Notes under the pieces: model-generated
What the model was told of the DNA's origin: nothing
Databases searched by the model: none
The model's input: the letters and a program-made list of their open reading frames with translations, nothing else
Source of the DNA: Sulfuricurvum sp.
GTDB lineage: Bacteria; Campylobacterota; Campylobacteria; Campylobacterales; Sulfurimonadaceae
DNA length: 64,000 bases
Direction: 5' to 3'
NCBI GenBank assembly: GCA_030692765.1
Contig: JAUYUB010000006.1
Coordinates: 62,001-126,000 of the forward strand
Made by a program: the position numbers and the translations under genes
In this document: in pieces, positions 14,779-22,000 of the stretch
How the letters are laid out: each line of letters begins with the position of its first letter
How positions within the stretch are numbered: position 1 is the first letter of the stretch

Positions 14779-16246
14779 AAAGCTTCTCTTTGCCTTTTTG
14801 ACGGGCAGTAGGAATTACAGGCGCATGTGTAAATATATTCATACTCACCAACGTTCTTAATAGCATATTGTTGAGATCAAAGTTTTCAACTTCTCTCCCG
14901 AGTTGAAGTGTTGTAATCACTGCTTTTCCAACAATGTCTCTCCCTTTTTTTCCCGTCGTATCAATCGTTCGTATCCCCCATATATTATGCATTACCATAA
15001 CATTATTTTCATAGGTTCCAATATACAACAGAACATGTCCCTTTTTATATAAAATAGTTTCAAAAGGGATGCCTTTTTCTTTTATTAATGCAATTTTTTG
15101 ACTATTATCAAGTCCATTGAAGGAAATAACTTCCCCTTTTTTAGCTTGTGATGCTGAATTTCTTGGCAGCCAAATCCCAAAAGGAGTCAAATAATCACGG
15201 ATCATAGATGAACAATCACGCTCTTCAAACATCCCACCCCAACCATAAGTATTACGCAATAGATGCATTCCTATCTTAGTCAGATCCTCTTTATTCAGCA
15301 GATGTCTTCCAATGTGTCCTACATCTTTTGGAACCATCATCTCTTCAGTACTGCCACTGCTTTTCAAAAAGAGAACCTTGAAACCTTCAGACGTCTCTTC
15401 TATAAGTGGCAAAACCATTCCTATACGTGAATAGGCAATAAATTTGTTGGATTCGTCGTACAGAGGTATTTGATCCTGAGTAATAAAAACTTTTTCTTTA
15501 TCCTGGATGAGTTTGATCTGTTCTTGAGTTATCACTCTAACCCCATCGCTTTCAACCCATCCTGATGCATTATTGGTAAAAATATACACCCATGAACCAT
15601 CTTTGGAATAATGGGAGATAAAAATAGGTTCATTAAACGCTACACTGCTGTTTTGCAGTAGATCAAATGGATATCCCTCGCCTGGTTTTGTTGGATTTTT
15701 GTAGAGTGGTTTTGATGTAGGAAACACACGGATATTCATCCATTTAGTAGTAATCGCAGGTTTATTAACTGTTGAAAAAGCCAAAAAATTACTCTGAACA
15801 ACAAGCTGGGGAATCCATGTAGGATCAATAGGTTTTAAATTACTCCCATATCCTCCAGTAAAGGCACTGATGGGCCACTGAGCTTCTTTACTGCAAATAG
15901 GCGCTGCTACTAAATAACCCCATGGAGCATAATAATGCTTCTCAAAATGTTTTTGAACTTCAAAAGGAATCTCTTGATTCGTAAAATTCAGATCAAGATA
16001 GGGTGAAAGGCTTTGTGGAAAATATTCTAAATCATTGACTTTTTTAAAAATTGAAGGAAGTTCTGGCTCAAGATCTTGAGGCAATGGGACATCATATACA
16101 TCAGACGTCGTATTTAGATCATTACAAATAGGAGGCAAAGAGTTTGCCTCTGTGTCACGTGAAGCTATTTTTGGATGCGTTTTACTACACCCGTTCAATA
16201 AAAATAAAATTCCAAAAATACCTACACACTTCGCTACACTTTTCAT
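14768..16246 (-). CDS. SH3/NlpC-P60 peptidoglycan endopeptidase, lipoprotein
   Basis: A 492-residue lipoprotein (lipobox LLNGC, Cys about residue 20). An N-terminal stabilising domain (about 45-160) and two SH3b domains (about 165-330, with SGWVESDGVR) precede a C-terminal NlpC/P60 cysteine peptidase. The catalytic Cys lies in FEERDCSSMIRDYL near residue 345, and the His in KKGHVLLYIGTY near residue 405. This arrangement is the YkfC-like gamma-D-glutamyl-diaminopimelate endopeptidase type, cutting peptidoglycan stem peptides. It ends head-on against the tiny rod-like gene and follows the S24 repressor by 25 bp. Confidence 0.85.
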   Translation of the reverse strand: MKSVAKCVGIFGILFLLNGCSKTHPKIASRDTEANSLPPICNDLNTTSDVYDVPLPQDLEPELPSIFKKVNDLEYFPQSLSPYLDLNFTNQEIPFEVQKHFEKHYYAPWGYLVAAPICSKEAQWPISAFTGGYGSNLKPIDPTWIPQLVVQSNFLAFSTVNKPAITTKWMNIRVFPTSKPLYKNPTKPGEGYPFDLLQNSSVAFNEPIFISHYSKDGSWVYIFTNNASGWVESDGVRVITQEQIKLIQDKEKVFITQDQIPLYDESNKFIAYSRIGMVLPLIEETSEGFKVLFLKSSGSTEEMMVPKDVGHIGRHLLNKEDLTKIGMHLLRNTYGWGGMFEERDCSSMIRDYLTPFGIWLPRNSASQAKKGEVISFNGLDNSQKIALIKEKGIPFETILYKKGHVLLYIGTYENNVMVMHNIWGIRTIDTTGKKGRDIVGKAVITTLQLGREVENFDLNNMLLRTLVSMNIFTHAPVIPTARQKGKEKLSKL

Positions 16247-16271: not shown

Positions 16272-16931
16272 TTATTCAACACCACCAAAACGTCCCACGA
16301 CACGCCCAATAATCTCTACTTCATTGCGTTGTGCCACATACGTTGGATAGTCTTTATTGTCTGAAATAATATCGAGTTTACCATCAATTCTCACTTGTAC
16401 TCTTTTAATAAATAGCCCATATTCAGTTCGTATGGTAAACACACCACCTCGGCTTACTTCTTTTTTAGCTCGATTGATAAAGACAATATCGTTGTAACTA
16501 AAAGATGGCTCCATAGAATCACCCGAAACGTTAATCGCCTCAATATTGCGTAATTCTTTCTCACCGCCCAGTGACATCACAAAATTTTCTTCTAACATTA
16601 AGGGTTCAAAATCCAGCTCTTCATTTTCAGCGCCCCCACCTGCGGAGGCACTTACCGAAGAGAAATACCGCACCATATAAAAGCGATTGGTCGGTTCAAT
16701 CAAGCTTTCGGGAGATTGATTGTAAAGAATCCAATTAATAGCAATGGAACGCTTGGCACAAAAATCGAGCAATTCATTAAACGGAATCTTATTGCGCTTT
16801 TTCATCGTTGCGAAATTCATTTGAGTAATTTCCAATAACTCTGCAACATCTTTATCGAATACTTTTTTATCGGGGAATTCCCCTGAAACGATATCTTTGA
16901 TCGTTTCAACAATTTCAAAAAAACTTTTCAT
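16272..16931 (-). CDS. S24-family (CI/LexA-like) transcriptional repressor
   Basis: A 219-residue self-cleaving-type repressor. Residues 25-70 form a lambda-type helix-turn-helix (DVAELLEITQMNFATMKKRN). A linker with an Ala-Gly pair (SASAGGG, A97-G98) is the probable autocleavage point. The S24 protease part carries Ser139 (VSGDSMEPSF) and Lys176 (GLFIKRV), the catalytic dyad. LexA itself is absent from well-studied Campylobacterota, so this may be a damage- or stress-responsive regulator. No phage genes are nearby. It is preceded by a promoter whose -35 and spacer contain palindromes, suggesting autoregulation. Confidence 0.88.
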   Translation of the reverse strand: MKSFFEIVETIKDIVSGEFPDKKVFDKDVAELLEITQMNFATMKKRNKIPFNELLDFCAKRSIAINWILYNQSPESLIEPTNRFYMVRYFSSVSASAGGGAENEELDFEPLMLEENFVMSLGGEKELRNIEAINVSGDSMEPSFSYNDIVFINRAKKEVSRGGVFTIRTEYGLFIKRVQVRIDGKLDIISDNKDYPTYVAQRNEVEIIGRVVGRFGGVE

Positions 16932-16965
16932 TGAGCCTCTCCATCTTTTAATTGTATGTGATATT

Positions 16966-17053
16966 GTAGGTATTATGGCATATATTTCAATAAATATGTC
17001 AATTTGTCATATTAATACTGATAAAGTTGATAATTAATTACTATTTGTCAAAT
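16966..17053. promoter_or_regulatory. S24 repressor promoter/operator region
   Basis: On the minus strand a TTGACA (16997-17002) and an extended CATAAT lie upstream of the repressor, though the 19-bp spacer is long. The spacer holds a palindrome ATATTTcaatAAATAT (16982-16997). Three related boxes with a TGTCA core follow: ATATGTCAATT (16994-17004), ATTTGTCATAT (17002-17012) and the palindrome ATTTGTCAAAT (17043-17053). They are good candidates for repressor-binding sites between the repressor and the divergent micro-ORF. Binding is inferred. Confidence 0.45.
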
Positions 17054-17086
17054 CAATAAAAAATTACTATCCAATAGGAGTACACA

Positions 17087-17170
17087 ATGGCGCGAATAAT
17101 TAAAAAAGCAAATACAATGATGGATCGTTTTGAAGAAAGAATGGAAAACTGGGCAAAAAAAATATTTTAA
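17087..17170 (+). CDS. Micro-ORF, 27 residues, divergent from the S24 repressor
   Basis: ATG preceded by a strong AGGAG site 6 bp upstream opens a 27-codon frame with start, stop and ideal spacing. The peptide is basic and amphipathic: MARIIKKANTMM, then DRFEERMENWAKKIF, with a helical spacing of hydrophobic residues. It lies directly downstream of the putative repressor operators and its stop overlaps the stop of a convergent 41-residue ORF. Such short amphipathic peptides can act on membranes or be regulators; no homologue known to me. The strong ribosome site is the main evidence. Confidence 0.45.
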   Translation: MARIIKKANTMMDRFEERMENWAKKIF

Positions 17171-17292
17171 TTCGAAGCAGAATCTTCTTTATCGAACTGA
17201 TTGATACGCGAGAGGTGGTAGCCTCTAAAAATGTAGATGAGAAAGAGGATAAAGCCAATGACCATGATCGTATCAAAAGTTTGAAAGATCAC
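17167..17292 (-). CDS. Small membrane protein coupled to trmL, 41 residues
   Basis: A GTG start overlaps the trmL stop codon (GTGA junction), and the frame runs 41 codons to a TAA. The peptide has one hydrophobic segment (TIMVIGFILFLIYIF) followed by a basic turn (RGYHLSR) and a short acidic tail. A stop-start overlap after an enzyme gene is typical of a real coupled gene. It is the last gene of the leuD-trmL operon. The function is unknown. Confidence 0.55.
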   Translation of the reverse strand: MIFQTFDTIMVIGFILFLIYIFRGYHLSRINQFDKEDSASN

Positions 17293-21404: not shown

Positions 21405-21731
21405 TCACCCGATAAAACGATGAAATAAAATATCTTCTGCATTTTGCCGTGAATCAATAACAGATAACACATAGACATGATCTGCATCAATTTTATACAT
21501 AACACGCCATCGGTCAATAATCAACTCACGATAGATTAGGATACCAAATTCTCGCAGTTCGGGAACAATTCGCCCTCGTTCTGGAAAGGTATTGAGTTTT
21601 TGAGCTTGGTCTTTCATTGATTTTAAAATTGAACGGGCATTTTGAGGGCTGTCATGATGGATATATTCTAAAATAGCCGATAAATCATTTTGAGCCGTAT
21701 TTGTCCAAAAAACTGAAAAAGTTTTTGCCAT
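21405..21731 (-). CDS. ParE/RelE-family toxin
   Basis: A 108-residue protein of the ParE/RelE fold: FWTNTAQNDLSAILEYIHHDSPQNA (core NDLSAILEYI near residue 15), LNTFPERGRIVPEL near residue 52 and RELIIDRWRVMYKID near residue 70, with the final strand VYVLSVIDSRQN. The PERGRxVPEL and RVxY pattern is typical of ParE toxins acting on gyrase, though RelE-type mRNA cleavage cannot be ruled out. The ATG overlaps the antitoxin stop by 1 bp. Confidence 0.85.
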   Translation of the reverse strand: MAKTFSVFWTNTAQNDLSAILEYIHHDSPQNARSILKSMKDQAQKLNTFPERGRIVPELREFGILIYRELIIDRWRVMYKIDADHVYVLSVIDSRQNAEDILFHRFIG

Positions 21732-22000
21732 TAGACTAATTTTTGTTCGATTTTTTCAAAAAAGGAGTCTTGCGATACAAAGTTACCGCTTTGAATCTCT
21801 TTTTCCCCTTCAGCTAACAGCTTTAACAAAGAAATCGCATTCTTCATATTTTGATAGCTTTCGATGTCTTGTATGACAGCTTTTGCTTCCCCATTTTGAG
21901 TAATAATGAGAGGTCTGTGTGATTCATTAACGTATAACAATGCATCTGCAGTTTTTGCTTTTAAATAACTGATTGGTTTAATATCGGTCGCTAAATTCAT
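21731..22000 (-). CDS. Phd/YefM-family antitoxin
   Basis: An 89-residue antitoxin. The N terminus IKPISYLKAKTADALLYVNESHRPLIITQNGEAKAVI, of which RPLIITQNGEAKAVI is the hallmark, forms the Phd/YefM DNA-binding fold. The C-terminal half (about 55-89) is the flexible toxin-neutralising tail. It precedes its toxin with a 1-bp overlap. Two ACTAAATTTA boxes just upstream are the likely autoregulatory operator. Confidence 0.87.
   Translation of the reverse strand: MNLATDIKPISYLKAKTADALLYVNESHRPLIITQNGEAKAVIQDIESYQNMKNAISLLKLLAEGEKEIQSGNFVSQDSFFEKIEQKLV

Follow-up and report, generated by a model that had tools for sequence, protein, structure and literature searches.

The window analysed here, a stretch of 64,000 nucleotides, is Sulfuricurvum chromosome, and the nearest named record, Sulfuricurvum sp., shares 99% protein identity with it. 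A gene for a 219-residue S24 (LexA/CI-type) repressor lies on the reverse strand at positions 16272 to 16931. Divergent from it, across a gap of 155 bp, lies a 27-codon gene (17087–17170, forward strand) with an AGGAG ribosome site, which encodes the micropeptide MARIIKKANTMMDRFEERMENWAKKIF, predicted to form an amphipathic helix. Both genes had been proposed in an initial annotation made from the sequence alone and both are real; the repressor matches the Pfam model Peptidase_S24 at 60.2 bits, against a cut-off of 23.3. According to Pfam and the ORF list, the neighbours are chromosomal genes, among them one for an NlpC/P60 lipoprotein (nlpC) and one for a SpoU-family methylase (trmL). Among 80 related loci nlpC is kept in 77 and trmL in 71, and because these flanking genes are conserved in position the locus is core chromosomal. 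The surrounding phage genes that would mark a prophage CI switch were not found in the window's ORF list. The initial annotation had noted no phage genes nearby and had argued against a simple prophage relic, and the core synteny of the flanks leads us to reject such a relic as well. A single S24 match to the repressor was found in the strain's own genome, and no structured RNA was found by Rfam between positions 16200 and 17800.

Two further small-gene features of the window were recorded. A 41-residue membrane-like ORF (17167–17292, reverse strand) overlaps the end of the micropeptide gene and lies upstream of trmL; it is probably a real small protein, since a relative is present in 60 of the 80 related loci. 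At 21405–22000, on the reverse strand, two adjoining small genes resemble, by eye, a RelE/ParE-type toxin and an antitoxin.

The repressor carries an N-terminal helix-turn-helix, with the recognition region QMNFATMKKRNKIP, and a C-terminal S24 domain. The predicted self-cleavage site, A97-G98, is encoded at 16638–16643, the predicted catalytic serine, S139 in the motif GDSMEP, at 16515–16517, and the predicted catalytic lysine, K176 in the motif FIKR and 37 residues past the serine, at 16404–16406, all on the reverse strand. These residues are invariant in an alignment of 37 family proteins (A2) and are retained in 29/29 order-level homologues. The sequence features of a self-cleaving S24 repressor are present: a helix-turn-helix joined to an S24 domain, an Ala-Gly site and a Ser/Lys dyad. 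From these residues we infer that cleavage at A97-G98 is stimulated by RecA. A structure model of the protein (mean pLDDT 79.5, pTM 0.55) has LexA, lambda CI and 186 CI as its best fold matches, with Z scores of 13 to 14 for the C-terminal domain, and the matches include RecA-bound LexA (8trg) and RecA-bound CI (8gmu). RuBisCO accumulation factor entries also appeared in the fold searches; they were far weaker than those for LexA and CI and were set aside.

The protein is poorly described by the curated models of its better-known relatives. It scored 20.4 bits with the LexA model TIGR00498 (cut-off 110.95) and, about as weakly, 21.5 bits with the UmuD model PRK10276 (cut-off 110). In Pfam, Phage_CI_repr matched residues 27–72 weakly (17.4 bits against a cut-off of 22) and no LexA DNA-binding domain was seen; the fold comparison barely covers this N-terminal part. 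A phmmer search against PDB sequences gave no match. The repressor matched PHROG 4 and PHROG 6201, and distant matches were found in Helicobacter and Campylobacter phages. Together with the fold, these family matches suggest that the repressor is phage-derived.

LexA itself appears to be missing from the order, as the initial annotation had stated for Campylobacterota. None of 149 order genomes scored above the curated cut-off of the LexA model, whereas six named control genomes did, and the best match in the strain's own genome was the S24 protein itself, at 19.8 bits. In published accounts, H. pylori and C. jejuni are described as being without lexA, and H. pylori also as being without an SOS response (PMC2912397), while in C. 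lari, whose SOS status was left open, the gene most strongly up-regulated after heat was an S24 gene (PMC7118207). Of the 32 order-level S24 loci that were read, 20 have the homologue divergent from dinB. A literature search, with subscription papers mostly outside its scope, returned no published account of a regulon such as the one described here in Campylobacterota.

Between the two divergent promoters lies a 17-bp pseudo-palindromic operator, TATGTCAATTTGTCATA (16995–17011; consensus TATKNCAWWWTGNMATA), part of an odd-centred inverted repeat, ATATGwCAA-T-TTGwCATAT, around 16994–17012. Its conservation was assessed in 86 distinct intergenic regions drawn from loci L001 to L110, in which identical regions were counted once; L068, truncated at its N terminus, and L102, with little upstream sequence, were excluded. 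In 80 of these 86 gaps the operator has one mismatch or none, and in 65 it is perfect. The three TGTCA boxes described by the initial annotation do occur, at 16997, 17005 and 17046; from the frequency of TGTCA/TGACA in the window, a gap of 155 bp should hold about 0.4. Two of the three boxes are the arms of the inverted repeat. The third, at 17045–17051, is less conserved than the main operator and overlaps the putative -10 element of the micropeptide gene (TACTAT, 17040–17045, forward strand; found in most relatives), where it may be functional. On the repressor side, the promoter has a putative -10 element (TACAAT, 16963–16968, reverse strand) and a secondary half-site, TATGGCATATA (16972–16982), which is conserved as TATGNCATA in many Sulfuricurvum rows and may be a second operator. 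The 16-bp palindrome that the initial annotation placed in the repressor promoter was not confirmed as an exact one, the best 16-mers having two mismatched pairs.

With up to one mismatch the operator pattern occurs once in the 64-kb window and at least once in 21 of 100 shuffles; since it is not significant within the window alone, its weight comes from conservation and from whole-genome searches. A search for the box elsewhere in the genome, proposed in the initial annotation, was run with the operator and returned a perfect tandem pair upstream of recA. The 2.15-Mb genome holds three perfect operators, one in the divergent gap and two directly upstream of recA, 28 bp apart. When one mismatch was allowed, 13 operators were found against 6 for a reversed control, and of the 13 one precedes dprA and another comM, each with one mismatch; given this control, lone one-mismatch operators were trusted only where relatives agree. 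Operators outnumbered matches to the reversed pattern by 164 to 5 in 41 genomes of the genus, by 70 to 2 in eleven Sulfurimonas-type genomes and by 26 to 0 in five further family genomes outside the motif definition. A chance motif was rejected on these genome-wide counts and on the sites at recA.

The identity of the protein that recognises the operator was approached through the recognition helix. Among 29 order-level homologues, an operator with at most one mismatch lies beside the gene in 8/8 cases with the helix [FL]ATM and in 0/21 with other helices (Fisher exact test, 2.3e-7, relatedness ignored). Several homologues with an ENLSVLK-like helix carry TTAACAWWWTGTTAA-like sites, which have a CAWWWTG core in common with the operator. 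This covariation of helix and operator ties the S24 protein to the site at the level of sequence, and we infer that the repressor binds it.

Among distant targets recA is the most constant. For 30 of 40 Sulfuricurvum matches and 30 of 34 Sulfurimonas-type matches the recA locus was examined, and in all 30 of each group an operator with no more than one mismatch lies in the 150 bp before the gene. The operator is perfect in 29/30 Sulfuricurvum and 27/30 Sulfurimonas-type loci, and two operators are present in 22/30 and 9/30, respectively; in the remaining 222 kb of these loci no operator with up to one mismatch was found. The second recA operator, where there is one, adjoins a -10-like hexamer, an arrangement that would fit repression. 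An operator at about -60 of dprA was found with at most two mismatches in 27/30 loci (at most one in 14), against a background of 4 sites with up to two mismatches in the 64-kb window, and one at about -75 of comM with at most one mismatch in 23/30 loci. Operators at recG, radA and recN were not found in the strain's own genome. In the Sulfurospirillum-type genome G055, the sole perfect operator in 2.8 Mb lies upstream of recA; no perfect operator was found at recA in G263 or at the repressor gene in G199. The repressor went undetected in G005, G008 and G032 (91, 81 and 57% complete), in which the recA operator is perfect, and incomplete assemblies may explain its absence. Many of the genomes counted throughout are metagenome assemblies, and the relatives are not independent of one another.

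Of the 70 perfect operators in the eleven Sulfurimonas-type genomes, 12 are at recA, and the other 58 were read one by one. They precede the repressor (8), radA (5), recN, recG and comM (4 each), comEA (1), a Y-family polymerase (1), a 114-residue Cys-rich protein (2), integron-integrase-like genes (2) and a polysaccharide deacetylase (1); the remaining 26 lie before methyltransferase, RhuM-like, transposase or unassigned genes, or inside genes. Many perfect operators in G076, G095 and G096 are of this kind, lying before methyltransferase, RhuM-like and further genes that have no obvious part in repair. The 26 perfect operators of the five further family genomes are distributed among recA (5), the repressor itself (4), recG (4), the 114-residue protein (3), recN (2), radA (2), comEA (1), an integron integrase (1), a deacetylase (1) and others (3). 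An operator is thus common to the regulator's own promoter and to DNA-repair genes, as expected of a non-LexA SOS regulator. Target names were initially assigned by inspecting the N-terminal 100 residues, and ten representatives each were then checked with Pfam and NCBIfam. Representatives of RecA, RadA, ComEA and the integron integrase scored above the NCBIfam cut-offs; those of RecN, RecG, ComM, DprA and Pol IV matched below them, several of the loci ending within the gene, and Pfam supports the DprA, Mg-chelatase (ComM) and Y-family polymerase representatives. The names RhuM-like, methyltransferase and transposase, and those of the integrases in L329 and L341, were assigned by eye only. The 114-residue Cys-rich protein (L403:1572–1916, forward strand; also in L316, L320, L407 and L408) is a recurrent target in Sulfurimonas-type genomes, has no match in Pfam or NCBIfam and is possibly a new SOS gene.

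We consider it very probable that this phage-derived S24 repressor replaces LexA as the SOS-type regulator of the Sulfurimonadaceae, sulfur-oxidising relatives of Campylobacter, with the micropeptide as one of its outputs. The protein appears to work like LexA, yet by the curated model it is not LexA. In undamaged cells, dimers of the repressor would occupy the 17-bp operator and keep down the expression of its own gene, of the micropeptide gene divergent from it, of recA, and of several genes for recombination and DNA uptake, namely dprA, comM, radA, recN, recG, comEA and a Y-family polymerase, together with an integron integrase in some genomes. Upon damage, RecA on single-stranded DNA would stimulate self-cleavage between A97 and G98 by way of S139 and K176, the operators would be left empty and the regulon would be induced. 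Repression, rather than activation, is the presumed mode of action; against the replacement of LexA it can be said that an operator at about -48 would suit an activator too, and that the targets differ by lineage, with expected operators missing in some. The initial annotation had envisaged a compact stress switch. Its theme of DNA damage and its LexA-like logic are retained here, whereas its two-gene compactness gives way to a dispersed SOS-like regulon that includes recA.

Three other accounts of the repressor and its operator were weighed. The repressor is phage-like, with its PHROG 4 and PHROG 6201 assignments and its distant matches in Helicobacter and Campylobacter phages, as would be expected if it were a remnant prophage repressor controlling only itself and the neighbouring peptide, with the sites elsewhere due to chance. 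That account is contradicted by recA operators in 60/60 loci, whose remaining sequence has none, and it sits badly with the conserved nlpC and trmL flanks and with operator numbers far above the control; we regard it as very improbable. Equally improbable is a different regulator that binds the operator and has the S24 protein merely as its target: the link between the S24 protein and the operator does rest on sequence, but the type of operator follows the S24 recognition helix across families (8/8 against 0/21). A regulator with the same regulon could alternatively govern competence and recombination in response to a signal other than damage, without RecA-dependent cleavage. The targets overlap late competence functions (recA, dprA, comM, radA and comEA), and IrvR of Streptococcus mutans is described as LexA-like yet deviating from the RecA paradigm (PMC7101444). 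The cleavage-site, serine and lysine residues are nevertheless invariant even in distant homologues, recA, recN, recG and the Y-family polymerase are classic damage genes, and homologues adjoin dinB, all of which makes this account unlikely, and leaves a damage-responsive substitute for LexA as the reading we prefer.

The micropeptide gene is an unannotated small gene that is strongly conserved. A related divergent ORF was found in 83 of the 86 distinct upstream regions; 78 of the 83 are exactly 27 codons from start to stop and 80 are preceded by a Shine-Dalgarno-like sequence. The three regions without it belong to L075, L079 and L057, for which 153, 136 and 500 bases upstream were available. 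The dN/dS ratio is about 0.2, close pairs having a mean dS of about 1.0 and a mean dN of about 0.2. On the strength of this ratio, the constant length and the ribosome-site-like sequences, a spurious ORF was rejected; a leader peptide was rejected because, in the window, no gene on the same strand follows the micro-ORF before convergent genes are reached. The initial annotation had made its proposal depend on the micro-ORF being conserved and translated, and conservation is indeed accompanied by clear signs of translation. Judged by its sequence, the ORF is a genuine conserved gene.

In an alignment of 42 of the 83 peptides (A1, from which GTG-start, near-duplicate, truncated and out-of-register rows were omitted), E16, E20 and A23 are nearly invariant and hydrophobic residues recur at fixed helical spacing. 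The predicted helix is amphipathic with one conserved face. It carries charged residues on one face throughout and its mean hydrophobicity is near zero, which makes a membrane-spanning helix unlikely. Pfam, PHROGs and NCBIfam gave no match to the peptide. A peptide HMM run against 298 order genomes gave 28 matches at E ≤ 0.01, of which 24 are within the family, and all 24 adjoin a repressor homologue. Of the four outside the family, three are fragments inside long frames. The fourth (L446; G302:C7:83799–83879) is an intact orphan homologue of 27 residues with a strong ribosome site, and neither repressor nor operator was found near it within a 4-kb stretch. Other small ORFs occupy the micropeptide position elsewhere: 34 residues long in the Sulfurospirillum-type loci L198 and L433, and 27 to 31 residues in three loci of family f7, in two of which (L431 and L432) dinB comes next. 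In family f6 (L426 and L429) a different conserved ORF of 35–36 residues, which looks unrelated to the 27-residue peptide, is divergent from the repressor and adjoins a matching operator.

Most probably the peptide is an accessory induced by damage, acting either as a modulator of the repressor or as a small effector. Its divergent, co-regulated position is that of ddrR beside umuDAb, as described in Acinetobacter (PMC7273328), and a DdrR-like peptide that binds the repressor, tuning repression or resetting the response, is a real possibility, if somewhat short of an even one. The amphipathic helix with its conserved face and the adjoining repressor in all 24 family genomes favour such a role; the orphan homologue in G302, with no repressor in its 4-kb stretch, argues against it. 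An effector might, for example, slow growth or division, act on membranes, or work with a polymerase or RecA; the orphan copy would be in keeping with such a role, as would the similar small ORF followed directly by dinB in L431 and L432 of another family. The near-zero mean hydrophobicity, with charged residues on one face throughout, speaks against an effector, which we likewise hold to be quite possible without calling it probable.

The repressor belongs functionally with HdiR, UmuDAb, FddR and the regulators of the Bacteroidetes. As the source describes it, FddR of Francisella is likewise an S24 repressor of phage type, co-opted in a lineage poor in LexA, is autoregulated through a palindrome and adjoins a divergent gene of unknown function, with a dinB unit in some species; its operator differs (GTG-N11-CAC), and it controls itself and its neighbours without recA being induced, whereas here the operator is dispersed (PMC13148647). 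UmuDAb and DdrR of Acinetobacter, a genus without LexA, likewise combine an S24 repressor with a divergent small gene under a common operator (PMC7273328; PMC11332147). The promoters of both Acinetobacter genes overlap the site bound by the repressor (PMC7273328), and DdrR is reported to enhance binding modestly (PMC11332147). UmuDAb derives from UmuD and governs mainly error-prone polymerases, in contrast to the recA, recombination and competence regulon described here (PMC7273328; PMC11332147). We take the likeness of the divergent, co-regulated small genes as a lead to the role of the peptide and not as evidence of homology. DdrR, with 84 residues, is larger than the 27-residue peptide. HdiR of the Streptococcaceae is also a phage-type S24 repressor that replaces LexA, and in S. 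thermophilus it controls cinA-recA and influences natural transformation; its regulon is minimal, and the passages of the account cited report no conserved divergent micropeptide (PMC8565304). The non-canonical LexA proteins of the Bacteroidetes, likened here by their description, are S24 regulators other than LexA, probably of phage origin, that govern a complete SOS-type regulon, in another phylum and with other motifs, CTAA-N5-TTAG and GGA-N5-TCC (PMC8565304). TF-smORF antirepressor modules of prophages likewise place a small protein divergent from a regulator, the small protein acting on a CI repressor, and differ in being phage-borne and independent of DNA damage (PMC10432266).

For a large group of environmental relatives of Campylobacter and Helicobacter, these results provide a concrete regulator, operator and list of targets. 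Within one order, one repressor family occurs in two arrangements, in one paired with dinB and in the other heading a dispersed regulon that includes recA. A network built up from divergent repressor units has been proposed for Francisella (PMC13148647), and by analogy the dinB units and the dispersed Sulfurimonadaceae regulon resemble that route; their presence in one order makes the proposed rebuilding of an SOS response from divergent units testable (PMC13148647). We suggest tentatively, as a proposal with nearly an even chance of being right, that the SOS response of Campylobacterota was rebuilt on a captured phage repressor, initially as a repressor-dinB unit, whose control was extended in Sulfurimonadaceae to recA and to genes for recombination and DNA uptake. 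Damage would then induce repair jointly with natural transformation, and the micropeptide would found a family of peptides, about 27 to 34 residues long and induced by damage, that either tune the repressor or carry out the response.

LexA controls intI and so ties gene capture to damage. The integron integrase and mobile-element genes under the common operator suggest a similar tie here. An integron integrase gene in L412 (333–1349, reverse strand; TIGR02249, 390 bits against a cut-off of 265) has an operator about 150 bp upstream, as do the integron integrase genes in L329 and L341. DNA methyltransferase, RhuM-like and other mobile or defence-type genes in L308, L310, L314, L324, L328 and L334–L337 have perfect operators some 20 to 70 bp ahead of them, as though, to judge from the sites, such elements had adopted the operator of their host.
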